64,000 nucleotides of DNA from assembly GCF_037975245.1 (NCBI RefSeq), contig NC_092568.1, forward strand, positions 3,917,001-3,981,000. The letters are read 5' to 3'. Below the pieces are notes generated by a model. It was not told the origin of the DNA and did not search any database. It saw nothing but the letters and a program-made list of their open reading frames with translations. The translations under genes and the position numbers were made by a program. This stretch comes from Apostichopus japonicus (Eukaryota > Echinodermata > Holothuroidea > Aspidochirotida > Stichopodidae). Numbering within the stretch: position 1 is the first letter of the stretch; every line of letters starts with the position of its first letter. Of this stretch, positions 2,605 to 51,010 are shown piece after piece.

Positions 2605-2657
2605 TTACTAAGCAGGGATTAGAAGTGCGTCATCTCCTAAATAAATTCAAAACTCTC

Positions 2658-2896: not shown

Positions 2897-2943
2897 TACT
2901 CAAATTAAAGGGAAAATTTAAGTAAAAAGAAAGAAAATGTACT

Positions 2944-3007: not shown

Positions 3008-3165
3008 AGATAGGAAAAGATAGTAAAGATGCCATTAAATAATAAACAATTATTTTGATGATGCATAAATTTAAATCTAAAGTGACTTCTCTTAAAAGGA
3101 TTGTCTGGTGGCCCAAAGAAGTTACCTTAAAAAATAGTAAATAATTTTCCAAACATGTTGTCAAA

Positions 3166-18900: not shown

Positions 18901-19413
18901 TACTCTAACGTTTACAATCGGACAGTTCTGCGATTAAATCGATTCCGCCAAGTTTCATCTTTCGGTTTAACGAATACTTTACAAGTTTCCTTTTACTGTT
19001 AATTTGATCCGTGAATTTTATTTCAGCGATTTCGAAGAACAGTTAATGAACTGTGGTTTGAGTGTGAGTGTACTGTGTGTAACGCTATACAAGTACACCA
19101 ACTGAGCATCGTAGTATATACGTTCGCGAGTATGTACGTTATATATATGAGGCAATCCAATGTGCTTACACGTGAGTTTATTTGCTGCGGAATTGGGAGT
19201 GCTAACTTCAAGTCGCCTGTTTTGCCTATCTGCAAGCACTACGTCAATCACCATATTGAAGCGTTCGAACAAACGGTACTTTTGGTGAGAAACTGGTGAA
19301 TTTGAAAACCAGATTTCTACAAGAAGAAAACGTCGAATGGGGACAATTTTTACATGGTTAGAAAGAGAAAAATAATAACTACAAGGACAATGTATCAAAA
19401 TCTTCCACCAGAC

Positions 19414-19703
19414 AATTCCTTTAATACTTAGAAGTGATTAAAAGTGCGTCGTCATCTTCATGAATTCAAAACCATCAAAGTAGGCTCAATTTAAATTAAA
19501 AGAAAGAAAATGTACTTGCCGAAACCCGGGAAAGTTCAGAACTCGTTTGAGTTCTCCTTAAATGATTTGAAGCAGGGACCTTTAGATCTTCAGTCTAACG
19601 CTCTCCCAACTGAGCTATTTCGGCAGTTAGGAAGAGATAGATGCAATTAAATAATAAACAATTATTTTGATAATATATAAATTTAAGTCTGAAGTGAATT
19701 CTC
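19414..19703 (-). repeat. First unit of the tRNA-Phe satellite array
   Basis: The array begins at about 19414 with the spacer words TTTAATACTTAGAAGTGATT and AAAAGTGCGTCGTC. It contains one tRNA-like gene (19517-19624) and ends at the 8-bp duplication GAATTCTC (19696-19703) of the inserted hAT MITE. Confidence 0.9.
19517..19624 (-). tRNA. tRNA-Phe(GAA)-like gene with T-loop hairpin insert
   Basis: 108 nt on the minus strand. The acceptor stem GCCGAAA/TTTCGGC, D arm GCTC/GAGC and anticodon arm TTAGA-CTGAAGA-TCTAA are intact, giving anticodon GAA. About 35 nt are inserted in the T loop, with the hairpin AGAACTC-AAAC-GAGTTCT. In this unit the T stem reads CCTGC rather than CCTGG, which breaks the invariant G53-C61 pair and the B-box GGTTC. 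It is probably not a source of mature tRNA. Confidence 0.75.
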
Positions 19704-20452
19704 CAAGGGCGGCGGAAGCACTTTTAATCTGGGGGGGCACCAACGTCGAAGGGCACTTTGCAGAAATTCGATTGGACTGATGCAGCCTGATATGTAGTAC
19801 CCTTTATAACTCTTATTGTATTATCTTATTTGCGTATACACATCACTCCATGAATGCCCCCCCGCCCCCGCCTCAAGTAAACAATGTATACTAGCACTGC
19901 AATATCTAATGTGCAAATTGGGAAATTGGAAAATCATTATAAAGTCCAAGTCCCTGCACACGCGTACGATACATGCATGAAAGCAAATGAAATATGTCAA
20001 AATACTGAAAGAAAAATAATTTTCTATGTGTTTTTCAATGGTTAAACTAATATTATTATGATCATTATTATTGTAACGACTTTGCCAATAATTCTAACCA
20101 ATTTGGAAGGGTTATAACACGGCAATGATTGTATGTTATTGGCATGCTATGTAATAACCAACGCATGCCTATATGATATGCACGTTAACATACATGTTGA
20201 ACGCGCGCGTAGCGCGCGAAAAATTTTGGTAATGTTTTTCGGGCAAGTCGTTACAGCCCCCCCCCCCCCCCTCCCCCCAAATCAAATTGGGCTCCTATAC
20301 GCCTGTGGTAGTAAACATTTAAAACTTCCGGGTTTCGCTTTGTAAACTCTTTATTTATTTAGAAATTTTTATGTAGAAAAAGGGCACATTTTTAACCTGA
20401 GGAAAAGTGGGGGGGCACGTGCCCCCTGTGCCCCCCGGTTCCGCCGCCCTTG
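19704..20452. mobile_element. hAT-type MITE inserted in the satellite, 749 bp
   Basis: Perfect inverted ends CAAGGGCGGCGGAA and TTCCGCCGCCCTTG are flanked by the 8-bp duplication GAATTCTC at 19696-19703 and 20453-20460. That word occurs once in the corresponding satellite spacer, so this is a clean insertion. The MITE at 53266-53922 has the same ends and matching subterminal sequence in the opposite orientation. It has G/C homopolymer runs and no transposase. Confidence 0.95.
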
Positions 20453-20556
20453 GAATTCTCTTAATACTTAGTAGTGATTAAAAGTGCGTCGTCTTCGTAA
20501 TAAATTCAAAACAATCAAAGTAGGCTCAATTAAAATTAAAAGAAAGAAAATGTACT

Positions 20557-20664
20557 TGCCGAAACCCGGGAAAGTTCAGAACTCGTTTGAGTTCTCCGGA
20601 AATGATTTGAAGCAGGGACCTTTAGATCTTCAGTCTAACGCTCTCCCAACTGAGCTATTTCGGC
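20557..20664 (-). tRNA. tRNA-Phe(GAA)-like gene with T-loop hairpin insert
   Basis: Same architecture as the unit at 19517. It carries the CCTGC T-stem/B-box variant. A TTTT Pol III terminator lies a few bases beyond the 3' end in the spacer (ACATTTTC). Confidence 0.75.
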
Positions 20665-20839
20665 AGTTAGGAAAAGATAGATGCAATTAAATAATAAACA
20701 ATTATTTTGATAATATATAAATTTAAGTCTGAAGTGAATTCTCTTAATACTTAGTAGTGATTAAAAGTGCGTCGTCTTCGTAATAAATTCAAAACAATCA
20801 AAGTAGGCTCAATTAAAATTAAAAGAAAGAAAATGTACT

Positions 20840-20947
20840 TGCCGAAACCCGGGAAAGTTCAGAACTCGTTTGAGTTCTCCGGAAATGATTTGAAGCAGGG
20901 ACCTTTAGATCTTCAGTCTAACGCTCTCCCAACTGAGCTATTTCGGC
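20840..20947 (-). tRNA. tRNA-Phe(GAA)-like gene with T-loop hairpin insert
   Basis: Nearly identical to the unit at 20557, 283 bp away, with the CCTGC T-stem variant. Its spacer hosts the full-length LINE. Confidence 0.75.
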
Positions 20948-21124
20948 AGTTAGGAAAAGATAGATGCAATTAAATAATAAACAATTATTTTGATAATATA
21001 TAAATTTAAGTCTGAAGTGAATTCTCTTAATACTTAGTAGTGATTAAAAGTGCGTCGTCTTCGTAATAAATTCAAAACAATCAAAGTAGGCTCAATTAAA
21101 ATTTTTTTTTTTTTAAAGTTTCAC

Positions 21125-21130
21125 TTTATT
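21125..21130 (-). terminator. LINE polyadenylation signal AATAAA
   Basis: AATAAA on the minus strand, about 10 nt before the A tail (21114-21102). A matching signal exists in the LINE relic near 2690. Confidence 0.8.
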
Positions 21131-21279
21131 CAACCAAAATCAAAATGTACAGATAAAACAAGTGCTCTTAGTGCACTTTTTGACAAGTACTAAACAGAAT
21201 TTAGTAAAATAATAATCCAAACAGTTAATGCAGAACAAAGGAAGTATATATTAAGACTTTAGAAATGAAAAACAAAACC

Positions 21280-24200
21280 TTAAGAGACATTTGTCTTGAG
21301 ATTAATATGAAGTTTGTCTTTTTTAATTTTAACAAAAGACGTTCCGGACGTCCAAAGTTTACTGAACTGATGTTTTGTAAGACGACTGAAGTCTGCTTCT
21401 ACTCGGGTTTTAATTTCCTTTGCAATAATCGAGAGAAGAGCAGTCCCAGTTTGGGCTTGGTCTTCAAAAATATGAAGGCACCTTGACTTCCAAATAGCAA
21501 ATTTCGTAATACAAAAGATAAACCAAATTCTGTTGAAAACTATCTGTGGAAAGTCGACACAAGGGAATCCAAACAAATACAGTTTCATGTTAAATGAGCT
21601 GTTATCACCAGCTAATCTGTGAAAAATTTTCTCTACCCAAATCAAAACTGTCTTGGCTTTTGGGCATTCCCAGAAAATGTGAGAAATGGTCTCAATTTCG
21701 TTACACTGCTCGCAAGGACAAATACCGTCACCCATTCCCCAGTCCTTTATCCTTTTACCGGTGTACAAAATGTGATGTGCTAGACGCCATTGAAAATCCA
21801 TTAATTTGTTGCCTAGCATGTTACTAAAGGCCAGCTTCCAGATGGTCTCCCAAGGGAAAGCTGGGTAATCTCTAACAGCAATTAAGTTGGCACCACTGGG
21901 TTGAAGGGATTTAGTAATAAGTTTGATACTCTTACTGGACTGAAAGAAAAGGCTGTCCATGGAATGTAACCTCCTAATGATATCACTTGCGTAAAGTAAC
22001 GAGGGTGGACAAACGGCAGAATTTGGCCGCGTATTGGACCATAACTGAGGGAAGACTCTACGTAGTGGCATGGCCAGAAAGAAACGAGCTATAATAAAAT
22101 GGATAGGCGGGTCTTGCATGCGAGTCAGCAAGGTAAATAAAGGTCTAATTAACAATGCATCCATCTTATTTCTAAAACTATCTAAACCTAAGCCGCCTTG
22201 TAGTCTGTCCAAGATGATGACTTTCCTAGACACAAGGTCGGGTTTGTTTTCACCCCAAATAAAGGAGAAAACGGCTTTGTTTACTTCCTTGACCACACTA
22301 TCAGGCACACGAAAAACGGGGGCCACAAAGTAAAACAGTGGATAAATAACAGTATTAGTAACCAGTACTTTGCCTAGGAGAGTCAAGTGTCTGCTGCTCC
22401 AAGATTTAGCAAGAAGAGTGGCAGATTTAACCTTTGTAGCCCAATTACAATGGACAGCCTCCTTTGAACCAAAAGTCACACCCGTGATTTTGATTGAAGA
22501 GGTACTCCAATGAATGTTGGTGGGTAACTGACGAGAGGCAAACGTACCCAACTTTAAGCCACAAGTCTTGCTCATGTTTACAGAAGCACCGGTAGCTTTT
22601 TGAAAAAGTTTAAACACATTAAAATACTGTGCGATATCACCAATATTGGTTGCAACACATGTGGCGTCATCCGCGTATTGAAGAAATTTAACACGTCTGC
22701 CACTCCCACCAGGGATGGGAAAGCCCCGGATGCTATTGCAACTGTTAATATATCTAGAAATTGGCTCAATAAATAACACATACAGAACCGGTGAAAGGGG
22801 GCAGCCCTGCCTCACCCCTCGAGCAATGGGTATGATATCAGAGAGATTTCCGTTGATAAGAATACGACTGTAAATATTGTTGTACAAAATAGTCACCCAT
22901 TTTCGAAAATTGCTACCAAACCGTAACTTCTCGAGAACTCTCATAAGAAATGACCAAGAAACTTTATCGAAAGCTTTGTGTTGGTCGATTGAGATGAGGG
23001 CACAATCAATTTTCTTCATGGCAGAATAATCAATTATATCTCTAATTATGAACATATTATCGTGAATAGATCTGCCAGGGACAGAACACGTTTGATGCTC
23101 GTTTACAATAGTGGGCAATACTTTAGACATTCTGATTTGTAGAACCTTCGAGATCAGTTTATAGTCTGTGTTAAGCAGACTGATTGGACGCCAATTGGTT
23201 GGGTCAGTCTTATCACCTTTCTTTGGGAGAAGTGTAACGATGCCTGTACGCTGAGACATTGACATAGTGCCAGTTTTGAAAATGTTGTTATAAACACCGA
23301 GGAGGTCTTCGCCCAACATATCTAGGAAGGAGGAATAGAATTCATATGGAAGACCATCAATACCCGGAGATTTGTTATTGGAAGCAAGCGACAGAGCAAT
23401 CTTTATCTCATCTAGAGTGATAGGTTTTTCAAGACTTTCAATGTCCTCATCATTTAACATGTTGTGCAAACTATTAATGAAAACATCTTGAGAACTCTCG
23501 TCAAACCCTTCGTGGTTGGAATAGAGATCACTAAAGAATTTGTGGAAAACCTCTATAATTTCCTTATTATTGCAGGTAATATTACCGTCCGGTTTGCGGA
23601 CTTGATGAACAACTTTCTGATCGGCTTGACGTTTTTCTTTTCTAAAGAAAAAGGCAGATGGTTTTTCCCCTTCTTCAAGAAATTGAGCTCTGGAACGAAT
23701 GTAAGCACCTCTTAACTCAGTGTTAATAATATCATCGATTTCCTGAGAATTTGAAGTCGCACAAAGCGTTTGAAGCTCTTTAAGCCGATTTCTCTTCTGA
23801 CGAGCAATGCGGGAGCTGTGCCGAACCGCAAGCGTTTTAATTCTAGACTTAACGTTCTCCCACCAATCAGATAAAGCATTAAAACCTGGCTTCAGAGTGG
23901 ACCAAAGCTTATAATAAACACGTAATTCTTTGCAGAATTCCTTATCATTGTTAAGAGACACATTGTACTTCCAATAACCTTTCCCCCGAGTAGCAGTGTG
24001 AGGAATTTTGATGTTGACCTGAATAGGCTTATGGTCAGAATAAGGGATCGGCGACGTAGTCGCTTTGTTGACAAAAAAATCTCTCGAAGAGTAGATTCGA
24101 TCAAGTCTAGAACTTTGACTGTTGTTAAAACGAAACCAGGTATGACCGGGTATGGTGGGGTGGATAACCCTATAACAATCAACAAGATTATAAGTGACAA

Positions 24201-24722
24201 TAAGATCGTTGATCTCATCCCGGCCTACAAAAGCAGAACGGTTGGACGAAATGTTTGAGCGATCGATGTCATCCATTACACAATTAAAATCGCCCCCCAA
24301 AATAATATGGTCGTAACCACGGGTGTAAGTGTAAATTTGCCTGAAAAACGCTTTCCTTTCACTCGGGGCGTTAGGCGCATAAATGTTACAAACCCGTACA
24401 GTACTGTTATGAATAGTGCAGAGGGCAGAAATGCAACGACCAGAGGTATCGTGTCTTACTTGCGAAATGACGCAACACAGTTTACTACTGAAAGCAATAC
24501 CCACCCCACAAGAGTGATTAGAAGAACTAGGGGAGAAAATGAAAGGACCACCCCATTGACGTCTGAAAAATTGAGAGTCGGCACTATCCGACAAATACAG
24601 TTCTTGCAGAGAATAATATCAAAATTGAATATCTTAGCCCATTGTAAAATCTTTGAACATTTTTTGTTGTCTCTTAGTCCATTAACGTTAAGTGAAGCAA
24701 TCGATAGGTTCATAGTAGCCAT
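21280..24722 (-). pseudogene. LINE ORF2: AP endonuclease-reverse transcriptase, one frameshift
   Basis: It starts at the ATG at 24722 (MATMNLSIASLNVNGLRDNK, the N of the first endonuclease motif visible) and ends at TAA 21280. A one-base loss near 24605, within the D-I-I-L/L-Q-E region, shifts the frame; the rest is open for 1,104 codons. Along this open part: LGGDFN (about residue 99), SRLDRIYSS (162) and SDHKP (186) of the APE-type endonuclease; RT blocks NWRPISLLNTDYK (467), the motif A aspartate in SIDQHKAFD (535), RQGCPLSP (595) and the catalytic YADD (640). A C-terminal zinc-binding-like CPCEQC...H...C segment follows near residue 970. It would nick target DNA and copy the element RNA in place. 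With the frameshift, no full endonuclease is made unless bypassed. Confidence 0.93.
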
Positions 24723-24779
24723 AGAGAGAGATAAAGTAAAGAACAGAACGAGATGTATACCACAATGAGATTCCGATGA

Positions 24780-26177
24780 TCAGGCATTCCTTAAAAAATA
24801 CCTGTCGAAAAATTCTATCTCCTTTTTACTGACAAATTCTGGGTGCTCGTCAGCCATATGTAAGATCCATTCCTGGGGGGATTTACACGTATTCTTGCAT
24901 GACTTCATAGCACATGGGTACTTTGACGGTTTCAGCTTTGGGTGGGCGTTTAACAGGTGCTCTTTCAAAACGTGATACTCAGAAAAAACTTCCGGGCATC
25001 CCTTTGCTTTACATGAGTGCCATGGCTCATCCTCTAGAAAAATTTGTGACATTTTCACACTATCTTTGGGGTCCTCGGCGGGGAAGCGAAGACTTGACCT
25101 GGATCTTTCTGGTCTTTTGACTGCTTCAGGTTGGGAGACACTTTTTCTCTTGGGTCTTAAGCTGGGACGAAATTTATTATCCCCAACGATGTCCTCTTGT
25201 GACGATATTTCAGGTGAAGGTTTAGACTGTCTTCTTTCGCTGTTCGATACTTCCCGATGTTCTGTTTGAGGGGTGGCCCAGCTACTTGATGCTAAAGACA
25301 TTGTCTCCATAACCTCTGTGTTTTCGAACAAATCTGTGTCGCTATCGTTGATTGTTTGACTTTCTTCTTTTTTCTCTAGGTCCTGTGTCATACCTTGTGT
25401 ATCGACCGTTTCGGCATTGGTGTTGCCGTCAGTTACTTTTGCCGTTGGCTCGTCAGTTTCTTCCGACATTGTTGCCTCTTGTTGCACGACAGCAGGACCC
25501 TTGACCCAGGCTCTGGCGGTAGGGCTGATTTTGTTCGCAAAGGAAATTGGGCAGCTACGAGAGGTGTGCCCCAACTTTTCGCATACGGTGCACTTAACTT
25601 CAGTCACACATTGCTTTGCTGTATGTCCAATTTCGTGACAGTTGTAGCACTTTATCTGGTCACAGTGTTTTGCTTCATGTCCGTTTGCTCCACATTTCAG
25701 GCAAGTTCTGGGCTGGCCTCTATATCGCACCCAACAGTTTCTTCCACCAAGTCTTAAGGATGAAGGGATGTCTTTGGTGATTTCAACCTGATACTGCCGA
25801 ATCCCATTAAACACCTGTGGGTAGTCGGAAAGTGTAAGGAAACGACCACTCACAACTTTACCGTAACGGCCTAGAATATACCTCACCACGTTGTCCCCCA
25901 ATTCATACGGTACATGCAAAACGGTAACTAGCGTCGTGCAACCGGTATATGTTGTTGCAGTGCAGCAATCTGCACTCGATAGAGCAGGCCAAAACTTCTT
26001 CTTCAAATCTACTGTTTTGAAAGTCACGTCCCATAGTCTACCGGGGAGTTCCTGAACCGCCGTTAGATGTTCTCCGGGATCTATGCACTTTTCCTTCAAA
26101 AGATTAAAAAGAACTGACTTCCCCTCACTACAATCTAGGTGAAGCTGTATGGACGTGTCTCGACTAAGAGCAGCCAT
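24780..26177 (-). CDS. LINE ORF1: zinc-knuckle/zinc-finger RNA-binding protein
   Basis: 465 residues, start ATG at 26177 (MAALSRDTSIQLHLDC), stop TGA at 24780. An upstream non-ATG extension of the frame to 26216 is not needed. After an N-terminal region that looks like an RNA-recognition fold, three CCHC zinc knuckles follow at about residues 165-220 (CLKCGANGHEAKHC, CYNCHEIGHTAKQC, CTVCEKLGHTSRSC). Then comes a charged, low-complexity middle, and near the C terminus two C2H2-like fingers (C-x4-C...H-x5-H, at about residues 390-450). ORF1 proteins bind element RNA. C-terminal fingers could bind DNA, but this is inference. The frame is intact. ORF2 begins 57 nt downstream in the same frame. 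Confidence 0.9.
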   Translation of the reverse strand: MAALSRDTSIQLHLDCSEGKSVLFNLLKEKCIDPGEHLTAVQELPGRLWDVTFKTVDLKKKFWPALSSADCCTATTYTGCTTLVTVLHVPYELGDNVVRYILGRYGKVVSGRFLTLSDYPQVFNGIRQYQVEITKDIPSSLRLGGRNCWVRYRGQPRTCLKCGANGHEAKHCDQIKCYNCHEIGHTAKQCVTEVKCTVCEKLGHTSRSCPISFANKISPTARAWVKGPAVVQQEATMSEETDEPTAKVTDGNTNAETVDTQGMTQDLEKKEESQTINDSDTDLFENTEVMETMSLASSSWATPQTEHREVSNSERRQSKPSPEISSQEDIVGDNKFRPSLRPKRKSVSQPEAVKRPERSRSSLRFPAEDPKDSVKMSQIFLEDEPWHSCKAKGCPEVFSEYHVLKEHLLNAHPKLKPSKYPCAMKSCKNTCKSPQEWILHMADEHPEFVSKKEIEFFDRYFLRNA

Positions 26178-26226
26178 ATTGATTCCTATGTTCGTTCTTG
26201 TTCTATTAAAGCTCAACTATATAAGG

Positions 26227-28832
26227 CTCAATTAAAATTAAAAGAAAGAAAATGTACTTGCCGAAACCCGGGAAAGTTCAGAACTCGTTTGAGTTCTCCG
26301 ATATGATTTGAACCAGGGACCTTTAGATCTTCAGTCTAACGCTCTCCCAACTGAGCTATTTCGGCAGATAGGAAAAGATAGATGCAATTAAATAATAAAC
26401 AATTATTTTGATGATGTATAAATTTAAGTCTGAAGTGACTTCTCTTCATACCAAGAAGGGATTAAAAGTGCGTCCTCTTTACTAATAAATTCAAAACAAT
26501 CAAGTACAGCTCAATTTAAGTCAAAAAGAAGAAGAAAGAAAATGTACTTGCCGAAACCCGGGAAAGTTCAGAACTCGTTTGAGTTCTCCGGAAGTGATTT
26601 GAAGCAGGGACCTTTAGATCTTCAGTCTAACGCTCTCCCAACTGAGCTATTTCGGCAGTTAGGAAAAGATAGATGCAATTAAATAATAAACAATTATTTT
26701 GATAATATATAAATTTAAGTCTGAAGTGAATTCTCTTAATACTTAGTAGTGATTAAAAGTGCGTCGTCTTCTTAATAAATTCAAAACAATCAAAGTAGGC
26801 TCAATTAAAAAGAAGAAGAAAGAAAATGTACTTGCCGAAACCCGGGAAAGTTCAGAACTCGCTTGAGTTCTCCGGAAGTGATTTGAAGCAGGGACCTTTA
26901 GATCTTCAGTCTAACGCTCTCCCAACTGAGCTATTTCGGCAGTTAGGAAAAGATAGATGCAATTAAATAATAAACAATTATTTTGATAATATATAAATTT
27001 AAGTCTGAAGTGAATTCTCTTAATACTTAGTAGTGATTAAAAGTGCGTCGTCTTCGTAATAAATTCAAAACAATCAAAGTAGGCTCAATTAAAATTAAAA
27101 GAAAGAAAATGTACTTGCCGAAACCCGGGAAAGTTCAGAACTCGTTTGAGTTCTCCGGATATGATTTGAACCAGGGACCTTTAGATCTTCAGTCTAACGC
27201 TCTCCCAACTGAGCTATTTCGGCAGATAGGAAAAGATAGATGCAATTAAATAATAAACAATTATTTTGATGATGTATAAATTTAAGTCTGAAGTGACTTC
27301 TCTTCATACCAAGAAGGGATTAAAAGTGCGTCCTCTTTACTAATAAATTCAAAACAATCAAGTACAGCTCAATTTAAGTCAAAAAGAAGAAGAAAGAAAA
27401 TGTACTTGCCGAAACCCGGGAAAGTTCAGAACTCGTTTGAGTTCTCCGGAAGTGATTTGAAGCAGGGACCTTTAGATCTTCAGTCTAACGCTCTCCCAAC
27501 TGAGCTATTTCGGCAGTTAGGAAAAGATAGATGCAATTAAATAATAAACAATTATTTTGATAATATATAAATTTAAGTCTGAAGTGAATTCTCTTAATAC
27601 TTAGTAGTGATTAAAAGTGCGTCGTCTTCTTAATAAATTCAAAACAATCAAAGTAGGCTCAATTAAAAAGAAGAAGAAAGAAAATGTACTTGCCGAAACC
27701 CGGGAAAGTTCAGAACTCGCTTGAGTTCTCCGGAAGTGATTTGAAGCAGGGACCTTTAGATCTTCAGTCTAACGCTCTCCCAACTGAGCTATTTCGGCAG
27801 TTAGGAAAAGATAGATGCAATTAAATAATAAACAATTATTTTGATAATATATAAATTTAAGTCTGAAGTGAATTCTCTTAATACTTAGTAGTGATTAAAA
27901 GTGCGTCGTCTTCGTAATAAATTCAAAACAATCAAAGTAGGCTCAATTAAAATTAAAAGAAAGAAAATGTACTTGCCGAAACCCGGGAAAGTTCAGAACT
28001 CGTTTGAGTTCTCCGGATATGATTTGAACCAGGGACCTTTAGATCTTCAGTCTAACGCTCTCCCAACTGAGCTATTTCGGCAGATAGGAAAAGATAGATG
28101 CAATTAAATAATAAACAATTATTTTGATGATGTATAAATTTAAGTCTGAAGTGACTTCTCTTCATACCAAGAAGGGATTAAAAGTGCGTCCTCTTTACTA
28201 ATAAATTCAAAACAATCAAGTACAGCTCAATTTAAGTCAAAAAGAAGAAGAAAGAAAATGTACTTGCCGAAACCCGGGAAAGTTCAGAACTCGTTTGAGT
28301 TCTCCGGAAGTGATTTGAAGCAGGGACCTTTAGATCTTCAGTCTAACGCTCTCCCAACTGAGCTATTTCGGCAGTTAGGAAAAGATAGATGCAATTAAAT
28401 AATAAACAATTATTTTGATAATATATAAATTTAAGTCTGAAGTGAATTCTCTTAATACTTAGTAGTGATTAAAAGTGCGTCGTCTTCTTAATAAATTCAA
28501 AACAATCAAAGTAGGCTCAATTAAAAAGAAGAAGAAAGAAAATGTACTTGCCGAAACCCGGGAAAGTTCAGAACTCGCTTGAGTTCTCCGGAAGTGACTT
28601 GAAGCAGGGACCTTTAGATCTTCAGTCTAACGCTCTCCCAACTGAGCTATTTCGGCAGTTAGGAAAAGATAGATGCAATTAAATAATAAACAATTATTTT
28701 GATAATATATAAATTTAAGTCTGAAGTGAATTCTCTTAATACTTAGTAGTGATTAAAAGTGCGTCGTCTTCGTAATAAATTCAAAACAATCAAAGTAGGC
28801 TCAATTAAAATTAAAAGAAAGAAAATGTACTT
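26227..28832 (-). repeat. Three-unit higher-order repeat, 858 bp, about three copies
   Basis: The spacing pattern 290/291-284-283 repeats from 26259, 27116 and 27974 to 28832. The same unit order recurs: a CCTGG unit, then two CCTGC units, one of them with the loop variant CTCGCTTGAG. Copies are nearly identical. Confidence 0.85.
27116..27223 (-). tRNA. Representative tRNA-Phe-like gene with intact B box
   Basis: Here the A box TAGCTCAGTTGG and B box GGTTCAAATC both look functional. All four stems can form if the roughly 35-nt insert is looped out of the T arm (T stem CCTGG with CCGGG). The insert carries a perfect 7-bp stem AGAACTC/GAGTTCT with loop AAAC. The 3' flank AAGTACATTTTCTTTC provides a Pol III T-run terminator. 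The gene could be transcribed, but whether its RNA is charged or processed cannot be told from sequence. Confidence 0.75.
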
Positions 28833-29112
28833 GCCGAAACCCGGGAAAGTTCAGAACTCGTTTGAGTTCTCCGGAAATGATTTGAACCAGGGACCTTTAG
28901 ATCTTCAGTCTAACGCTCTCCCAAACTGAGCTATTTCGGCAGATAGGAAAAGATAGATGCCATTAAATAATAAGCAATTATCTTTATAATGTATAAATTT
29001 AAGTCTGAAGTGACCTCTCTTAAAAGTAGTAATTAAAAGTGCGTCGTCTTCGTAATAAATTCAAAACAATCAAAGTAGGCTCAGTTTAAATTAAAAGAAA
29101 GAAAATGTACTT

Positions 29113-35100: not shown

Positions 35101-35124
35101 AATTAAAAGAAAGAAAATGTACTT
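29113..35124 (-). repeat. 6-kb higher-order repeat, copy 1 (21 units)
   Basis: The block between two units with the rare 279/280-bp spacer (29112 and 35124). Private variants shared with copy 2 include GTGTTTACAAGTGCG (31886), CCTTGAGATC (32032), TTTAGTTCTTCAG (33470), GTGCCTCGTC (33616) and GGGAATGTTCAG (33711). Confidence 0.85.
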
Positions 35125-38100: not shown

Positions 38101-41100
38101 GAAAGATGCAATTAAATAATAAGCAATTATTTTGATGATGTATAAATTTAAGTCTGAAGTGACTTCTCTTCATACCAAAAAGGGATTAAAAGTGCGTCCT
38201 CTTTACTAATAAATTCAAAACAATCAAGTACAGCTCAATTTAAGTCAAAAAGAAGAAGAAAGAAAATGTACTTGCCGAAACCCGGGAAAGTTCAGAACTC
38301 GTTTGAGTTCTCCGGATATGATTTGAGCCAGGGACCTTTAGATCTTCAGTCTAACGCTCTCCCAACTGAGCTATTTCGGCAGATAGGAAAAGATAGATGC
38401 CATTAAATAATAAGCAATTATTTTGATGATGTATAAATTTAAGTCTGAAGTGACTTCTCTTCATACCAAGAAGGGATTAAAAGTGCGTCATCTTTACTAA
38501 TAAATTCAAAACAATCAAGTACAGCTCAATTTAAGTCAAAAAGAAGTAGAAAGAAAATGTACTTGCCGAAACCCGGGAAAGTTCAGAACTCGTTTGAGTT
38601 CTCCGGAAGTGATTTGAAGCAGGGACCTTTAGATCTTCAGTCTAACGCTCTCCCAACTGAGCTATTTCGGCAGCTAGGAAAGGATAGATGCAATTAAATA
38701 ATAAGCAATTATTTTGATAAAGTATAAATTTAAGTCTGAAGTGACTTCTCTTAATACTTAGTAGTGATTAAAAGTGCGTCGTCTTCTTAATAAATTCAAA
38801 ACAATCAAAGTAGGCTCAATTAAAATTAAAAGAAAGAAAATGTACTTGCCGAAACCCGGGAAAGTTCAGAACTCGTTTGAGTTCTCCGGAAGTGATTTGA
38901 ACCAGGGACCTTTAGATCTTCAGTCTAACGCTCTCCCAACTGAGCTATTTCGGCAGTTAGGAAAAGATAGATGCCATTAAATAATAAGCAATTAGTTAAA
39001 TCATGTATAAATTTAAGTCTGAAGTGACTTCTCTTCATACCAAGAAGGGATTAAAAGTGCGTCCTCTTTACTAATAAATTCAAAACAATCAAGTACAGCT
39101 CAATTTAAGTCAAAAAGAAGAAGAAAGAAAATGTACTTGCCGAAACCCGGGAAAGTTCAGAACTCGTTTGAGTTCTCCGGAAGTGATTTGAACCAGGGAC
39201 CTTTAGATCTTCAGTCTAACGCTCTCCCAACTGAGCTATTTCGGCAGCTAGGAAAGGATAGATGCAATTAAATAATAAGCAATTATTTTGATGATGTATA
39301 AATTTAAGTCTGAAGTGACTTCTCTTAATACTTAGTAGTGATTAAAAGTGCGTCGTCTTCTTAATAAATTCAAAACCATCAAAGTAGGCTCAATTAAAAT
39401 TAAAAGAAAGAAAATGTACTTGCCGAAACCCGGGAAAGTTCAGAACTCGTTTCAGTTCTCCGGAAGTGATTTGAACCAGGGACCTTTAGATCTTCAGTCT
39501 AACGCTCTCCCAACTGAGCTATTTCGGCAGATAGGAAAAGATAGATGCAATTAAATAATAAACAATTATTTTGATGATGTATAAATTTAAGTCTGAAGTG
39601 ACTTCTCTTCATACCAAGAAGGGATTAAAAGTGCGTCCTCTTTACTAATAAATTCAAAACAATCAAGTACAGCTCAATTTAAGTCAAAAAGAAGAAGAAA
39701 GAAAATGTACTTGCCGAAACCTGGGAAAGTTCAGAACTCGTTTGAGTTCTCCGGATATGATTTGAAGCAGGGACCTTTAGTTCTTCAGTCTAACGCTCTC
39801 CCAACTGAGCTATTTCGGCAGTTAGGAAAAGATAGATGCAATTAAATAATAAACTATTATTTTGATAATATATAAATTTAAGTCTGAAGTGAATTCTCTT
39901 AATACTTAGTAGTGATTAAAAGTGCCTCGTCTTCTTAATAAATTCAAAACAATCAAAGTAGGCTCAATTAAAATTAAAAGAAAGAAAATGTACTTGCCGA
40001 AACCCGGGAATGTTCAGAACTCGTTTGAGTTCTCCGGATATGATTTGAAGCAGGGACCTTTAGATCTTCAGTCTAACGCTCTCCCAACTGAGCTATTTCG
40101 GCAGATAGGAAAAGACAGATGCGATTAAATAATAAACAATTATTTTGATGATGTATAAATTTAAGTCTGAAGTGACTTCTCTTCATACCAAAAAGGGATT
40201 AAAAGTGCGTCCTCTTTACTAATAAATTCAAAAGACTCAAGTACAGCTCAAGTTAAGTCAAAAAGAAGTAGAAAGAAAATGTACTTGCCGAAACCCGGGA
40301 AAGTTCAGAACTCGTTTGAGTTCTCCGGATATGATTTGAACCAGGGACCTTTAGATCTTCAGTCTAACGCTCTCCCAACTGAGCTATTTCGGCAGATAGG
40401 AAAAGATAGATGCAATTAAATAATAAACAATTATTTTGATAATATATAAATTTAAGTCTGAAGTGACTTCTCTGAATACTTAGTAGTGATTACAAGTGCG
40501 TCGTCTTCGTAATAAATTCAAAACAATCAAAGTAGGCTCAATTAAAATTAAAAGAAAGAAAATGTACTTGCCGAAACCCGGGAAAGTTCAGAACTCGTTT
40601 GAGTTCTCCGGATATGATTTGAAGCAGGGACCTTTAGATCTTCAGTCTAACGCTCTCCCAACTGAGCTATTTCGGCAGATAGGAAAAGATAGATGCGATT
40701 AAATAATAAACAATTATTTTGATGATGTATAAATTTAAGTCTGAAGTGACTTCTCTTCATACCAAAAAGGGATTAAAAGTCCGTCCTCTTTACTAATAAA
40801 TTCAAAACAATCAAGTACAGCTCAATTTAAGTCAAAAAGAAGAAGAAAGAAAATGTACTTGCCGAAACCCGGGAAAGTTCAGAACTCGTTTGAGTTCTCC
40901 GGATATGATTTGAGCCAGGGACCTTTAGATCTTCAGTCTAACGCTCTCCCAACTGAGCTATTTCGGCAGATAGGAAAAGATAGATGCCATTAAATAATAA
41001 GCAATTATTTTGATGATATATAAATTTAAGTCTGAAGTGACTTCTCTTCATACCAAGAAGGGATTAAAAGTGCGTCATCTTTACTAATAAATTAAAAACA

Positions 41101-41430
41101 ATCAAGTACAGCTCAATTTAAGTCAAAAAGAAGGAGAAAGAAAATGTACTTGCCGAAACCCGGGAAAGTTCAGAACTCGTTTGAGTTCTCCGGAAGTGAT
41201 TTGAAGCAGGGACCTTTAGATCTTCAGTCTAACGCTCTCCCAACTGAGCTATTTCGGCAGCTAGGAAAGGATAGATGCAATTAAATAATAAGCAATCATC
41301 TTTATAATGTATAAATTTAAGTCTGAAGTGACCTCTCTTAAAAGTAGTAATTAAAAGTGCGTCGTCTTCGTAATAAATTCAAAACAATCAAAGTAGGCTC
41401 AGTTTAAATTAAAAGAAAGAAAATGTACTT
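35125..41430 (-). repeat. 6-kb higher-order repeat, copy 2 (22 units)
   Basis: It repeats copy 1 at an offset of 6,012 bp in its first half and 6,306 bp in its second half, because one extra 291-bp-spaced unit lies near 38.3 kb. The same private variants recur in order (37899, 38045, 39775, 39922, 40009). Confidence 0.85.
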
Positions 41431-44011
41431 GCCGAAACCCGGGAAAGTTCAGAACTCGTTTGAGTTCTCCGGAAGTGATTTGAACCAGGGACCTTTAGAT
41501 CTTCAGTCTAACGCTCTCCCAACTGAGCTATTTCGGCAGTTAGGAAAAGATAGATGCCATTAAATAATAAGCAATTAGTTAAATGATGTATAAATTTAAG
41601 TCTGAAGTGACTTCTCTTCATACCAAGAAAGGATTAAAAGTGCGTCCTCTTTACTAATAAATTCAAAACAATCAAGTACAGCTCAATTTAAGTCAAAAAG
41701 AAGAAGAAAGAAAATGTACTTGCCGAAACCCGGGAAAGTTCAGAACTCGTTTGAGTTCTCCGGAAGTGATTTGAAGCAGGGACCTTTAGATCTTCAGTCT
41801 AACGCTCTCCCAACTGAGCTATTTCGGCAGTTAGGAAAAGAAAGATGCAATTAAATAATAAGCAATTGTTTTGATGATGTATAAATTTAAGTCTGAAGTG
41901 ACTTCTCTTCATACCAAGAAGGGATTAAAAGTGCGTCGTCTTCTTAATAAATTCAAAACAATCAAGTACAGCTCAATTAAAATTAAAAGAAAGAAAATGT
42001 ACTTGCCGAAACCCGGGAAAGTTCAGAACTCGTTTGAGTTCTCCGGATATGATTTGAACCAGGGACCTTTAGATCTTCAGTCTAACGCTCTCCCAACTGA
42101 GCTATTTCGGCAGATAGGAAAAGATAGATGCCATTAAATAATAAGCAATTATTTTGATGATGTATAAATTTAAGTCTGAAGTGACTTCTCTTCACACCAA
42201 GAATTGATTAAAGTGCGTCCTCTTTACTAATAAATTCAAAACAATCAAGTACAGCTCAATTTAAGTCAAAAAGAAGAAGAAAGAAAATGTACTTGCCGAA
42301 ACCCGGGAAAGTTCAGAACTCGTTTGAGTTCTCCGGATATGATTTGAACCAGGGACCTTTAGAATTCAGTCTAACGCTCTCCCAACTGAGCTATTTCGGC
42401 AGATAGGAAAAGATAGATGCCATTAAATAATAAGCAATTATTTTAATGGTGTATAAATTTAAGTCTGAAGTGACTTCTCTTCATACCAAGAAGGGATTAA
42501 AAGTGCGTCGTCTTCTTAATAAATTCAAAACAATCAAGTACAGCTCAATTAAAATTAAAAGAAAGAAAATGTACTTGCCGAAACCCGGGAAAGTTCAGAA
42601 CTCGTTTGAGTTCTCCGGATATGATTTGAACCAGGGACCTTTAGATCTTCAGTCTAACGCTCTCCCAACTGAGCTATTTCGGCAGATAGGAAAAGATAGA
42701 TGCCATTAAATAATAAACAATTATTTTGATGATATATAAATTTAAGTCTGAAGTGACTTCTCTTCATACCAAGAAGGGATTAAAAGTGCGTCGTCCTCTT
42801 TACTAATAAATTCAAAACAATCAAGTAAAGCTCAATTTAAGTCAAAAAGAAGAAGAAAGAAAATGTACTTGCCGAAACCCGGGAAAGTTCAGAACTCGTT
42901 TGAGTTCTCCGGAAGTGATTTGAACCAGGGACCTTTAGATCTTCAGTCTAACGCTCTCCCAACTGAGCTATTTCGGCAGTTCGGAAAAGATAGATGCAAT
43001 TAAATAATAAGCAATTATTTTGATAATGTATAAATTTAAGTCTGAAGTGACTTCTCTTAATACTTAGTAGTGATTAAAAATGCGTCTTCTTAATGAATTC
43101 AAAACCATCAAAGTAGGCTCAATTAAAATTAAAAGAAAGAAAATGTACTTGCCGAAACCCGGGAAAGTTCAGAACTCGTTTGAGTTCTCCGGATATGATT
43201 TGAACCAGGGACCTTTAGATCTTCAGTCTAACGCTCTCCCAACTGAGCTATTTCGGCAGTTAGGAAAAGATAGATGCAATTAAATAATAAGCAATTATTT
43301 TGATGATGTATAAATTTAAGTCTGAAGTGACTTCTCTTCATACCAAGAAAGGATTAAAAGTGCGTCCTCTTTACTAATAAATTCAAAACAATCAAGTACA
43401 GCTCAATTTAAGTCAAAAAGAAGAAGAAAGAAAATGTACTTGCCGAAACCCGGGAAAGTTCAGAACTCGTTTGAGTTCTCCGGATATGATTTGAGCCAGG
43501 GACCTTTAGATCTTCAGTCTAACGCTCTCCCAACTGAGCTATTTCGGCAGATAGGAAAAGATAGATGCCATTAAATAATAAGCAATTATTTTGATGATGT
43601 ATAAATTTAAGTCTGAAGTGACTTCTCTTCATACCAAGAAGGGATTAAAAGTGCGTCATCTTTACTAATAAATTCAAAACAATCAAGTACAGCTCAATTT
43701 AAGTCAAAAAGAAGGAGAAAGAAAATGTACTTGCCGAAACCCGGGAAAGTTCAGAACTCGTTTGAGTTCTCCGGAAGGGATTTGAACCAGGGACCTTTAG
43801 ATCTTCAGTCTAACGCTCTCCCAACTGAGCTATTTCGGCAGCTAGGAAAGGATAGATGCAATTAACTAATAAGCAATCATCTTTATAATGTATAAATTTA
43901 AGTCTGAAGTGACCTCTCTTAAAAGTAGTAATTAAAAGTGCGTCGTCTTCGTAATAAATTCAAAACAATCAAAGTAGGCTCAGTTTAAATTAAAAGAAAG
44001 AAAATGTACTT

Positions 44012-47000
44012 GCCGAAACCCGGGAAAGTTCAGAACTCGTTTGAGTTCTCCGGAAGTGATTTGAACCAGGGACCTTGAGATCTTCAGTCTAACGCTCTCC
44101 CAACTGAGCTATTTCGGCAGTTAGGAAAAGATAGATGCCATTAAATAATAAGCAATTAGTTAAATGATGTATAAATTTAAGTCTGAAGTGACTTCTCTTC
44201 ATACCAAGAAAGGATTAAAAGTGCGTCCTCTTTACTAATAAATTCAAAACAATCAAGTACAGCTCAATTTAAGTCAAAAAGAAGAAGAAAGAAAATGTAC
44301 TTGCCGAAACCCGGGAAAGTTCAGAACTCGTTTGAGTTCTCCGGAAGTGATTTGAACCAGGGACCTTTAGATCTTCAGTCTAACGCTCTCCCAACTGAGC
44401 TATTTCGGCAGCTAGGAAAGGATAGATGCAATTAAATAATAAGCAATTATTTTGATAAAGTATAAATTTAAGTCTGAAGTGACTTCTCTTAATACTTAGT
44501 AGTGATTAAGTGCGTCGTCTTCTTAATAAATTCAAAACCATCAAAGTAGGCTCAATTAAAATTAAAAGAAAGAAAATGTACTTGCCGAAACCCGGGAAAG
44601 TTCAGAACTCGTTTGAGTTCTCCGGATATGATTTGAACCAGGGACCTTTAGATCTTCAGTCTAACGCTCTCCCAACTGAGCTATTTCGGCAGATAGGAAA
44701 AGATAGATGCCATTAAATAATAAGCAATTATTTTGATGATGTATAAATTTAAGTCTGAAGTGACTTCTCTTCACACCAAGAATTGATTAAAGTGCGGCCT
44801 TTTTTTCTAATAAATTCAAAACAATCAAGTACAGCTCAATTTAAGTCAAAAAGAAGAAGAAAGAAAATGTACTTGCCGAAACCCGGGAAAGTTCAGAACT
44901 CGTTTGAGTTCTCCGGATATGATTTGAACCAGGGACCTTTAGATCTTCAGTCTAACGCTCTCCCAACTGAGCTATTTCGGCAGTTCGGAAAAGATAGATG
45001 CAATTAAATAATAAACAATTATTTTGATGATGTATAAATTTAAGTCTGAAGTGACTTCTCTTCATACCAAGAAGGGATTAAAAGTGCGTCCTCTTTACTA
45101 ATAAATTCAAAACAATCAAGTACAGCTCAATTTAAGTCAAAAAGAAGAAGAAAGAAAATGTACTTGCCGAAACCCGGGAAAGTTCAGAACTCGTTTGAGT
45201 TCTCCGGAAGTGATTTGAAGCAGGGACCTTTAGTTCTTCAGTCTAACGCTCTCCCAACTGAGCTATTTCGGCAGTTAGGAAAAGATAGATGCAATTAAAT
45301 AATAAACAATTATTTTGATAATATATAAATTTAAGTCTGAAGTGAATTCTCTTAATACTTAGTAGTGATTAAAAGTGCCTCGTCTTCTTAATAAATTCAA
45401 AACAATCAAAGTAGGCTCAATTAAAATTAAAAGAAAGAAAATGTACTTGCCGAAACCCGGGAATGTTCAGAACTCGTTTGAGTTCTCCGGAAGTGATTTG
45501 AACCAGGGACCTTTAGATCTTCAGTCTAACGCTCTCCCAACTGAGCTATTTCGGCAGTTAGGAAAAGAAAGATGCAATTAAATAATAAGCAATTATTTTG
45601 ATGATGTATAAATTTAAGTCTGAAGTGACTTCTCTTCATACCAAGAAGGGATTAAAAGTGCGTCCTCTTTACTAATAAATTCAAAACAATCAAGTACATC
45701 TCAATTTAAGTCAAAAAGAAGAAGAAAGAAAATGTACTTGCCGAAACCCGGGAAAGTTCAGAACTCGTTTGAGTTCTCCGGATATGATTTGAGCCAGGGA
45801 CCTTTAGATCTTCAGTCTAACGCTCTCCCAACTGAGCTATTTCGGCAGATAGGAAAAGATAGATGCCATTAAATAATAAGCAATTATTTTGATGATGTAT
45901 AAATTTAAGTCTGAAGTGACTTCTCTTCATACCAAGAAGGGATTAAAAGTGCGTCATCTTTACTAATAAATTCAAAACAATCAAGTACAGCTCAATTTAA
46001 GTCAAAAAGAAGGAGAAAGAAAATGTACTTGCCGAAACCCGGGAAAGTTCAGAACTCGTTTGAGTTCTCCGGAAGTGATTTGAACCAGGGACCTTTAGAT
46101 CTTCAGTCTAACGCTCTCCCAACTGAGCTATTTCGGCAGCTAGGAAAGGATAGATGCAATTAAATAATAAGCAATCATCTTTATAATGTATAAATTTAAG
46201 TCTGAAGTGACCTCTCTTAAAAGTAGTAATTAAAAGTGCGTCGTCTTCGTAATAAATTCAAAACAATCAAAGTAGGCTCAGTTTAAATTAAAAGAAAGAA
46301 AATGTACTTGCCGAAACCCGGGAAAGTTCAGAACTCGTTTGAGTTCTCCGGATATGATTTGAACCAGGGACCTTTAGATCTTCAGTCTAACGCTCTCCCA
46401 ACTGAGCTATTTCGGCAGTTAGGAAAAGATAGATGCCATTAAATAATAAGCAATTAGTTAAATGATGTATAAATTTAAGTCTGAAGTGACTTCTCTTCAT
46501 ACCAAGAAAGGATTAAAAGTGCGTCCTCTTTACTAATAAATTCAAAACAATCAAGTACAGCTCAATTTAAGTCAAAAAGAAGAAGAAAGAAAATGTACTT
46601 GCCGAAACCCGGGAAAGTTCAGAACTCGTTTGAGTTCTCCGGAAGTGATTTGAAGCAGGGACCTTTAGATCTTCAGTCTAACGCTCTCCCAACTGAGCTA
46701 TTTCGGCAGCTAGGAAAGGATAGATGCAATTAAATAATAAGCAATTATTTTGATAAAGTATAAATTTAAGTCTGAAGTGACTTCTCTTAATACTTAGTAG
46801 TGATTAAAAGTGCGTCGTCTTCTTAATAAATTCAAAACAATCAAAGTAGGCTCAATTAAAATAAAGAAAATGTACTTGCCGAAACCCGGGAAAGTTCAGA
46901 ACTCGTTTGAGTTCTCCGGATATGATTTGAACCAGGGACCTTTAGATCTTCAGTCTAACGCTCTCCCAACTGAGCTATTTCGGCAGATAGGAAAAGATAG

Positions 47001-48603
47001 ATGCCATTAAATAATAAGCAATTATTTTGATGATGTATAAATTTAAGTCTGAAGTGACTTCTCTTCACACCAAGAATTGATTAAAGTGCGGCCTTTTTTT
47101 CTAATAAATTCAAAACAATCAAGTACAGCTCAATTTAAGTCAAAAAGAAGAAGAAAGAAAATGTACTTGCCGAAACCCGGGAAAGTTCAGAACTCGTTTG
47201 AGTTCTCCGGATATGATTTGAACCAGGGACCTTTAGATCTTCAGTCTAACGCTCTCCCAACTGAGCTATTTCGGCAGTTCGGAAAAGATAGATGCAATTA
47301 AATAATAAACAATTATTTTGATGATGTATAAATTTAAGTCTGAAGTGACTTCTCTTCATACCAAGAAGGGATTAAAAGTGCGTCCTCTTTACTAATAAAT
47401 TCAAAACAATCAAGTACAGCTCAATTTAAGTCAAAAAGAAGAAGAAAGAAAATGTACTTGCCGAAACCCGGGAAAGTTCAGAACTCGTTTGAGTTCTCCG
47501 GAAGTGATTTGAAGCAGGGACCTTTAGTTCTTCAGTCTAACGCTCTCCCAACTGAGCTATTTCGGCAGTTAGGAAAAGATAGATGCAATTAAATAATAAA
47601 CAATTATTTTGATAATATATAAATTTAAGTCTGAAGTGAATTCTCTTAATACTTAGTAGTGATTAAAAGTGCCTCGTCTTCTTAATAAATTCAAAACAAT
47701 CAAAGTAGGCTCAATTAAAATTAAAAGAAAGAAAATGTACTTGCCGAAACCCGGGAATGTTCAGAACTCGTTTGAGTTCTCCGGAAGTGATTTGAACCAG
47801 GGACCTTTAGATCTTCAGTCTAACGCTCTCCCAACTGAGCTATTTCGGCAGTTAGGAAAAGAAAGATGCAATTAAATAATAAGCAATTATTTTGATGATG
47901 TATAAATTTAAGTCTGAAGTGACTTCTCTTCATACCAAGAAGGGATTAAAAGTGCGTCCTCTTTACTAATAAATTCAAAACAATCAAGTACATCTCAATT
48001 TAAGTCAAAAAGAAGAAGAAAGAAAATGTACTTGCCGAAACCCGGGAAAGTTCAGAACTCGTTTGAGTTCTCCGGATATGATTTGAGCCAGGGACCTTTA
48101 GATCTTCAGTCTAACGCTCTCCCAACTGAGCTATTTCGGCAGATAGGAAAAGATAGATGCCATTAAATAATAAGCAATTATTTTGATGATGTATAAATTT
48201 AAGTCTGAAGTGACTTCTCTTCATACCAAGAAGGGATTAAAAGTGCGTCATCTTTACTAATAAATTCAAAACAATCAAGTACAGCTCAATTTAAGTCAAA
48301 AAGAAGGAGAAAGAAAATGTACTTGCCGAAACCCGGGAAAGTTCAGAACTCGTTTGAGTTCTCCGGAAGTGATTTGAACCAGGGACCTTTAGATCTTCAG
48401 TCTAACGCTCTCCCAACTGAGCTATTTCGGCAGCTAGGAAAGGATAGATGCAATTAAATAATAAGCAATCATCTTTATAATGTATAAATTTAAGTCTGAA
48501 GTGACCTCTCTTAAAAGTAGTAATTAAAAGTGCGTCGTCTTCGTAATAAATTCAAAACAATCAAAGTAGGCTCAGTTTAAATTAAAAGAAAGAAAATGTA
48601 CTT
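44012..48603 (-). repeat. Eight-unit higher-order repeat, 2.3 kb, two copies
   Basis: The 279-bp-spaced marker unit recurs at 44011, 46309 and 48603 (2,298 and 2,294 bp apart). Units with GTGCCTCGTC (45375, 47669) and with GTGCGGCCTTTTTTTC (44793, 47087) recur at 2,294 bp. Confidence 0.85.
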
Positions 48604-50618
48604 GCCGAAACCCGGGAAAGTTCAGAACTCGTTTGAGTTCTCCGGATATGATTTGAACCAGGGACCTTTAGATCTTCAGTCTAACGCTCTCCCAACTGAG
48701 CTATTTCGGCAGTTAGGAAAAGATAGATGCCATTAAATAATAAGCAATTAGTTAAATGATGTATAAATTTAAGTCTGAAGTGACTTCTCTTCATACCAAG
48801 AAAGGATTAAAAGTGCGTCCTCTTTACTAATAAATTCAAAACAATCAAGTACAGCTCAATTTAAGTCAAAAAGAAGAAGAAAGAAAATGTACTTGCCGAA
48901 ACCCGGGAAAGTTCAGAACTCGTTTGAGTTCTCCGGAAGTGATTTGAAGCAGGGACCTTTAGATCTTCAGTCTAACGCTCTCCCAACTGAGCTATTTCGG
49001 CAGCTAGGAAAGGATAGATGCAATTAAATAATAAGCAATTATTTTGATAAAGTATAAATTTAAGTCTGAAGTGACTTCTCTTAATACTTAGTAGTGATTA
49101 AAAGTGCGTCGTCTTCTTAATAAATTCAAAACAATCAAAGTAGGCTCAATTAAAATAAAGAAAATGTACTTGCCGAAACCCGGGAAAGTTCAGAACTCGT
49201 TTCAGTTCTCCGGATATGATTTGAACCAGGGACCTTTAGATCTTCAGTCTAACGCTCTCCCAACTGAGCTATTTCGGCAGATAGGAAAAGATAGATGCCA
49301 TTAAATAATAAGCAATTATTTTGATGATGTATAAATTTAAGTCTGAAGTGACTTCTCTTCACACCAAGAATTGATTAAAGTGCGTCCTCTTTACTAATAA
49401 ATTCAAAACAATCAAGTACAGCTCAATTTAAGTCAAAAAGAAGAAGAAAGAAAATGTACTTGCCGAAACCCGGGAAAGTTCAGAACTCGTTTGAGTTCTC
49501 CGGATATGATTTGAACCAGGGACCTTTAGAATTCAGTATAACGCTCTCCCAACTGAGCTATTTCGGCAGATAGGAAAAGATAGATGCCATTAAATAATAA
49601 GCAATTATTTTAATGGTGTATAAATTTAAGTCTGAAGTGACTTCTCTTCATACCAAGAAGGGATTAAAAGTGCGTCCTCTTTTTTTCAAATAAATTCAAA
49701 ACAATCAAGTACAGCTCAATTTAAGTCAAAAAGAAGAAGAAAGAAAATGTACTTGCCGAAACCCGGGAAAGTTCAGAACTCGTTTGAGTTCTCCGGATAT
49801 GATTTGAACCAGGGACCTTTAGATCTTCAGTCTAACGCTCTCCCAACTGAGCTATTTCGGCAGATAGGAAAAGATAGATGCCATTAAATAATAAACAATT
49901 ATTTTGATGATATATAAATTTAAGTCTGAAGTGACTTCTCTTCATACCAAGAAGGGATTAAAAGTGCGTCCTCTTTACTAATAAATTCAAAACAATCAAG
50001 TACAGCTCAATTTAAGTCAAAAAGAAGGAGAAAGAAAATGTACTTGCCGAAACCCGGGAAAGTTCAGAACTCGTTTGAGTTCTCCGGAAGTGATTTGAAC
50101 CAGGGACCTTTAGATCTTCAGTCTAACGCTCTCCCAACTGAGCTATTTCGGCAGTTCGGAAAAGATAGATGCAATTAAATAATAAGCAACTATTTTGATA
50201 ATGTATAAATTTAAGTCTGAAGTGACTTCTCTTAATACTTAGTAGTGATTAAAAATGCGTCGTCTTCTTAATGAATTCAAAACCATCAAAGTAGGCTCAA
50301 TTAAAATTAAAAGAAAGAAAATGTACTTGCCGAAACCCGGGAAAGTTCAGAACTCGTTTCAGTTCTCCGGATATGATTTGAACCAGGGACCTTTAGATCT
50401 TCAGTCTAACGCTCTCCCAACTGAGCTATTTCGGCAGATAGGAAAAGATAGATGCCATTAAATAATAAGCAATTATTTTGATGATGTATAAATTTAAGTC
50501 TGAAGTGACTTCTCTTCATACCAAGAAGGGATTAAAAGTGCGTCCTCTTTACTAATAAATTCAAAACAATCAAGTACAGCTCAATTTAAGTCAAAAAGAA
50601 GAAGAAAGAAAATGTACT

Positions 50619-50725
50619 TGCCGAAACCCGGGAAAGTTCAGAACTCGTTTAAGGCTCCGGAAGTGATTTGAACCAGGGACCTTTAGATCTTCAGTCTAAC
50701 GCTCTCCCAACTGAGCTATTTCGGC
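50619..50725 (-). tRNA. Last recognisable tRNA-Phe-like unit of the array
   Basis: The acceptor, D and anticodon arms are intact, but one hairpin arm of the insert is mutated (CTCGTTTAAGGCTCC on the plus strand), breaking most of its stem. The spacer beyond it is already decayed. Confidence 0.7.
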
Positions 50726-50760
50726 AGCTATAGGCAATGATAGATGCCAATTAAAATATA

Positions 50761-51010
50761 TGCAACTATTTTGACCTTTGAATTATTTTGACATTTAGAT
50801 CTTCAATCATATCGCTCTCCCTGCAACAAAGCTATTTTGGCTGCACAGAAAAGATGATGCAAAATGCATTGCATAACATAATATTATTCTGAAAGCGTTT
50901 TAATTTAAATCTGAAATGATTGTCTTAATACTAAGCAGGAATCAGCTAGATGCATGATCCAAAAGAAAATTCCAAAGTTACAATCGACTGCCGAAACAAT
51001 TGAAATTTCA
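50761..51010 (-). repeat. Decayed edge of the satellite
   Basis: Diverged pieces of one more unit can be followed: TTTAGATCTTCAATCATATC, CGCTCTCCCTGCAACAAAGC and TTTTGGCTGCA (tRNA part, about 50792-50843), then degraded spacer and ACTGCCGAAACA near 50989. Such decay at array ends is normal for satellites kept uniform by unequal exchange. Confidence 0.7.

Follow-up and report, generated by a model that had tools for sequence, protein, structure and literature searches.

A window of 64,000 nucleotides from the sea cucumber Apostichopus japonicus (contig NC_092568.1, positions 3,917,001 to 3,981,000 of the forward strand; coordinates below are positions in this window) contains a tandem array of units derived from a gene for a transfer RNA (tRNA), tRNA-Phe(GAA), in which every copy carries an insert in the T loop. 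With slightly better than even confidence, the array represents a tRNA-derived satellite that appears competent, by its sequence, for transcription by RNA polymerase III (Pol III) and whose RNA, if made, is probably no decoding tRNA.

Based on nhmmer searches of the window with a 108-nt consensus, 89 full-length units were detected, all on the minus strand, with the match reaching consensus position 108 in 84/89 and position 106 in 5/89. Each unit is a 73-nt tRNA-Phe(GAA) into which 35 nt (34 nt in two units) are inserted behind T-loop position 58; the remainder of the T loop, the 3' strands of the T and acceptor stems and the discriminator A come after the insert. The junction is ambiguous by one base, 58/59 and 59/60 being equally readable. 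In the main array of 86 units the unit length is nearly constant (277-294 bp), as in a tandem tRNA-derived Pol III satellite, and Tandem Repeats Finder (TRF) reported a period of 291 with 85.6 copies at 26242-50774. The full-length units are distributed as follows:

26259-50725, minus strand: main array of 86 tandem units, in which a 108-nt tRNA-Phe-like gene alternates with a spacer of ~169-186 bp (nhmmer with the 108-nt consensus; unit lengths; TRF)
20557-20947, minus strand: pair of units cut off from the main array by insertion of a long interspersed nuclear element (LINE) (nhmmer; sequence reading)
19517-19624, minus strand: lone unit, parted from the pair at 20557-20947 by a smaller inserted element (nhmmer; sequence reading)
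27116-27223, minus strand: example consensus unit (tRNA 1-58, insert 59-93, tRNA 94-108; TTTT from 115)
27131-27165, minus strand: 35-nt insert of the 27116-27223 unit, whose hairpin pairs gene positions 70-76 with 81-87

Pol III signals and integrity of the tRNA body

The units combine a recognisable tRNA with an A box, a B box and a T run, as would be expected of a tRNA-derived Pol III satellite. Judged by the consensus forms of the two boxes, the A box is TAGCTCAGTTGG, intact in most units, and the B box, GGTTCAAATCA, is exact in 52/89 units (counted from the variant list; the exceptions carry G53C in 30, T54C in 6 and A62C in 1), while TTTT begins at position 114-116 in 89/89 units and does not occur within the first 106 nt of any of them. 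Judging from these motifs, the units are likely still able to recruit Pol III.

The insert contains a 7-bp hairpin, AGAACTC-AAAC-GAGTTCT, which is exact in 81/89 units. Conservation of the tRNA itself is high in most positions: the anticodon loop CTGAAGA is exact in 87/89 units, positions 1-52 equal the consensus in 76/89, T54 is retained in 83/89 and C56 and A58 in 89/89, and under the 108-nt reading the 7-bp acceptor stem is perfect in 84/89, the other five carrying C107A. These counts bear out the initial annotation in its description of 89 tRNA-Phe(GAA) units with an insert of about 35 nt, a perfect 7-bp hairpin in most of them, an A box, a B box in part of the units and a downstream T run. 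It had also attributed textbook arms to every unit; one architecture is indeed present in 89/89, but only 44/89 are at consensus throughout the tRNA and the remaining 45/89 differ somewhere. The most frequent variant, G53C (30 units), breaks the T stem, and it is accompanied by T54C (6), C107A (5), T39A (4), G19T (3), A42C (3) and A62C (1), as well as a 1-nt insertion at position 15 in 1/89; all of the substitutions listed except A62C fall at what we take to be stem or tertiary-contact positions. Among the hairpin variants none is compensated. The uninterrupted cloverleaf of a functional tRNA-Phe is found in none of the units, the T loop holding 34-35 additional nucleotides in 89/89.

Automatic annotators mis-call these units: in the window, 69 tRNA calls by Rfam and 27 by ARAGORN have their 3' ends inside the insert, and families of this type could therefore inflate tRNA counts. 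The alternative 73-nt tRNA implied by such calls was rejected, as it shows acceptor-stem mismatches (two Rfam alignments and two ARAGORN drawings) versus the perfect 7-bp stem of the 108-nt form. An origin of the insert by duplication of tRNA sequence is not supported: 669/5,000 shuffled inserts align to the tRNA equally well, and 352/5,000 shuffles equal the match between the two T-arm-like stretches.

Variation across units and competing explanations

Variation was compared after exclusion of three edge units, the other 86 rows collapsing to 60 distinct units; since units share history, the p-values that follow are optimistic. In this set the tRNA is variable at 9/73 positions, the insert at 10/35, the hairpin at 3/18 and the spacer at 68/182, with diversities of 0.0149, 0.0411, 0.0126 and 0.0908, respectively. 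The tRNA is less variable than the spacer (p = 7e-5), also when only positions outside the promoter boxes are counted (6/54, p = 1.9e-4), and the trailer (positions 109-120, counted within the spacer) is invariant (0/12, p = 0.009). A single position varies in the A box (8-19), namely G19T in 2/60 distinct units; taken alone, the A box does not differ significantly from the spacer (1/12, p = 0.059).

Exact internal repeats of 2,340, 1,440, 1,435 and 1,047 bp occur at offsets of 2294, 858, 6015 and 6306 bp, respectively; blocks of units have therefore been copied recently and the copies are not independent. Spacers of two classes are mixed together in the array, and however far the spacers have diverged, the mean divergence of the genes stays at 0.020-0.025, which indicates either a reassortment of gene variants with spacer variants or constraint on, or conversion of, the gene part.

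Altogether, it can be proposed that an insert of 35 nt with a hairpin entered the T loop of a tRNA-Phe(GAA) gene between positions 58 and 59/60 and that the interrupted gene, together with its flanks, turned into a tandem satellite unit whose variants would have spread via unequal exchange. Pol III could still read many of these units, the product being an RNA whose acceptor stem is perfect and whose length is very roughly 110-125 nt. Such a transcript would not be a working decoding tRNA, because the insert stays in and many units have broken tRNA stems. The additional conservation of the tRNA body may mean that a transcript of tRNA shape is, or once was, under constraint.

Besides the optimism of the p-values, several observations weigh against this proposal. 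The insert is not clearly less variable than the spacer (p = 0.34; p = 0.044 for variants in three or more haplotypes), nor does the hairpin differ significantly from it (p = 0.12). Variability like that of the spacer is found in the B box (4/11), a box needed for Pol III, and in the 20-nt leader (7/20). The flat gene divergence is explicable by localised gene conversion without selection. Conservation of the non-promoter tRNA positions together with the tRNA-like low diversity of the hairpin also weighs against it, hinting at constraint beyond the needs of a by-product. The initial annotation had argued from the retention of the insert in about 90 copies; the copies exist, but the argument is weakened by homogenisation (repeats up to 2,340 bp) and by an insert not clearly more conserved than the spacer.

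A purely inert satellite would be a dead tRNA pseudogene that was amplified by unequal exchange and is chromatin-silent, the low variation of its tRNA being the product of recency and exchange and not of function. The strong recent homogenisation, the 45/89 units off consensus at some tRNA position and the lack of clear conservation in insert, B box and leader are all in line with it. However, the tRNA body and the trailer are less variable than the spacer of the very same units, which exchange alone does not predict, and this explanation is considered unlikely, if a serious contender.

According to a second explanation, the selected product of the array is a new functional Pol III noncoding RNA, a tRNA-shaped molecule of 108 nt with an extra hairpin at the elbow that is made in bulk. 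The low variability of the non-promoter tRNA positions compared with the spacer (6/54 vs 68/182) points in this direction, as do the T run in 89/89 units and the hairpin, exact in 81/89, with a tRNA-like diversity and a predicted pair probability of 0.94-1.0. Nevertheless, the hairpin varies at 3/18 positions (p = 0.12) with variants that are uncompensated, and the insert, taken whole, does not fall clearly short of the spacer in variability (10/35, p = 0.34; p = 0.044 when only variants in at least three haplotypes are counted). Such a role is rated as rather unlikely. A more specific form, in which the array is the amplified gene of a selected and unspliced small RNA that uses the tRNA-Phe scaffold with an extra elbow arm at 59/60 in a non-decoding role (such as that of a decoy for enzymes acting on tRNAs or of a source of fragments), is regarded as quite improbable.

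The insert could also be a noncanonical intron of the T loop whose splicing yields a working tRNA-Phe. ARAGORN does find a textbook tRNA-Phe once the 35 nt are omitted in silico, and in the red alga Cyanidioschyzon merolae a T-arm tRNA intron with a bulge-helix-bulge is described at 53/54 in the available part of the report (PMC9602550). That intron refutes the statement of the initial annotation that eukaryotic tRNA introns are known only beside the anticodon. In the array, a scan for bulge-helix-bulge motifs in one consensus unit under strict 3-4-3 geometry gave many candidates, none of which cuts at 58/59 or 59/60 so as to restore the tRNA, and the junctions of the scanned unit therefore lack the motif at which a tRNA splicing endonuclease would act. 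Because of this absence, unlike in C. merolae, an intron is not the best-supported reading. Moreover, G53C (30/89) and C107A (5/89) would leave stem mismatches after removal of the insert, and splicing is judged highly improbable. Among the three readings offered initially, satellite origin and Pol III signals (at the level of sequence) have held up, whereas unconventional processing is unsupported, considering the scan of that one unit and the T-stem mismatch that would remain in 30/89.

Equally hard to credit is a working tRNA-Phe that retains the hairpin as a projection from the elbow at 59/60. Bases at 59/60 bulge out in ordinary tRNAs, and T54 (83/89), C56 and A58 (89/89) and the acceptor stem (perfect in 84/89) are preserved, which speaks in its favour. 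Yet the predicted minimum is 6.3 kcal/mol more favourable than the cloverleaf with the hairpin, as against a gap of 1.7 kcal/mol in the insert-free tRNA, and predicted pairing probabilities in the interrupted RNA are 0.0 for the T stem and 0.08 for the D stem versus 0.94-1.0 for the insert hairpin; the RNAfold result is not decisive because the minimum of the insert-free tRNA is no cloverleaf either. In addition, G53C and T54C together hit 36/89 units.

Inserted elements and edges of the array

Several features interrupt or border the array:

21104-26224, minus strand: LINE with an open reading frame 1 (ORF1)-like frame of 478 aa containing a CCHC knuckle, and a reverse transcriptase (RT) frame of 1112 aa (endonuclease, RT and zf-RVT by Pfam)
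19703-20453: smaller element inserted into a unit, bearing inverted ends CCAAGGGCGGCGGAA and an apparent target duplication, AATTCT
19405-19424, plus strand: left boundary of the array, CCACCAGACAATTCCT then TTAA, resembling the inverted relic flank and tentatively like a terminal inverted repeat (TIR)
3092-3111, minus strand: 5' boundary of the relic unit, CCACCAGACAATCCTT then TTAA, tentative TIR-like partner
about 2600-3095, minus strand: relic unit that has lost its anticodon arm and some of its insert, its spacer broken by a short LINE 3'-end match
about 50790-51012, minus strand: decayed edge units (diverged 5' half at 50790-50841; trace at 50989-51012)

The limits initially set for the array (19414-50760) enclose the 89 full-length units, but the relic and the decayed units lie beyond them. 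The relic preserves positions 1-28 exactly. Unit decay is seen at the high-coordinate edge of the array, where the trace at 50989-51012 resembles the 3' end of a unit older still. The 10-kb stretches flanking the window on both sides contained no unit. In a genome-wide search with the 108-nt query (671,581,487 bp in 35 contigs) 40 of 96 first-look candidates were scored and all 40 were units of this window, while twenty 10-kb samples from ten contigs (~0.03% of the genome) contained no unit. An exact scan for 24 bases of the insert region gave no match in viral and genome contig collections, as expected for a eukaryotic repeat. Frames of ~82 aa recur on the opposite (plus) strand along the array (26434-50178); they are reverse readings of the satellite and do not constitute evidence of genes.

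The LINE is bounded on both sides by the 15-base repeat GGCTCAATTAAAATT and was inserted ~20-35 nt downstream of the gene of a unit. Within the spacer of the relic, a match of 56 columns to the 3' end of this LINE (86%, E 6e-10) was detected at 2663-2716, in the same orientation and at a similar position as the insertion in the array. With just two insertions, a target preference of the LINE for sites downstream of tRNA genes cannot be claimed.

The left flank of the array and the 5' flank of the relic share an inverted stretch with 15 identical letters in 16 columns, adjoining TTAA. Only 5/20,000 random 30-mer pairs score as high as this pair, which was chosen after being seen, and looser matches (up to 4 edits) number 9 in 220 kb. 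No copy bearing both TIR-like ends was found, and these features amount to hints, not more, of an element with inverted ends. A short interspersed nuclear element (SINE) is not indicated either: neither body nor tail was recognised in the unit, and there is one dispersed relic in the window. Away from the array, a tandem repeat at 55320-55436 has the unit GGGTTAGGAAGTA, which includes the telomere-like word GGGTTAGG.

Comparison with known systems

Repeats related to tRNAs are already known, and the form with a T-loop insert described here is real and unusual. A tRNA satellite with such an insert was not among the matches listed in the open-access literature, which constitutes weak evidence of novelty, as most subscription papers fall outside that scope. 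If transcribed, the array would provide dozens of natural tRNA copies with an elbow hairpin, testing the tolerance of RNase P, RNase Z, the CCA enzyme and tRNA modification enzymes.

In Nematostella and teleosts, tRNA genes have been reported in clusters of fifty and more, genes and pseudogenes being counted together (PMC2888827), and tRNA gene arrays in Entamoeba as well as a Ser/Tyr cluster in Arabidopsis are also on record (PMC2652664; PMC12308677). These share with the sea cucumber array the proximity of many tRNA genes; however, the accessible parts of those reports make no mention of a T-loop insert, which is present here in 89/89 units. The C. merolae intron likewise adds sequence to the T arm of a tRNA gene in a eukaryote, but it differs in that the insert of the array follows position 58 and the scanned unit lacks a bulge-helix-bulge there (PMC9602550, in the part available). 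The SINE-derived satellites of squamates, as treated in the available portion of PMC10702118, are comparable in that a Pol III-derived sequence became tandem, whereas in the present units the 3' end of the tRNA runs into a T run and an AT-rich spacer.

The nearest counterparts are the tRNA-related, Pol III-type tandem repeats of amphibians (newt, Xenopus, Rana and Hydromantes), for which the following holds as far as the same partial text (PMC10702118) extends. The PolIII/TAN family of the newt (~360 nt; tRNA-Glu according to the title of its reference) can be transcribed in vitro; the unit of OAX/satellite I of Xenopus is described as exceeding the length of a proper satellite; Rana/polIII (~250 nt) shows a 64% tRNA match over 64 nt; and Hy/polIII (~200 nt), without box B, is of questionable tRNA origin. 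Like these families, the array of A. japonicus is built of tandem tRNA-related units, and units of a few hundred bases are common to PolIII/TAN, Rana/polIII and Hy/polIII. Unlike them, it has a tRNA that is nearly perfect over its whole length, from one acceptor strand to the other, with a fixed 35-nt hairpin insert in the T loop. The array also shows a route leading from a tRNA gene to a satellite.

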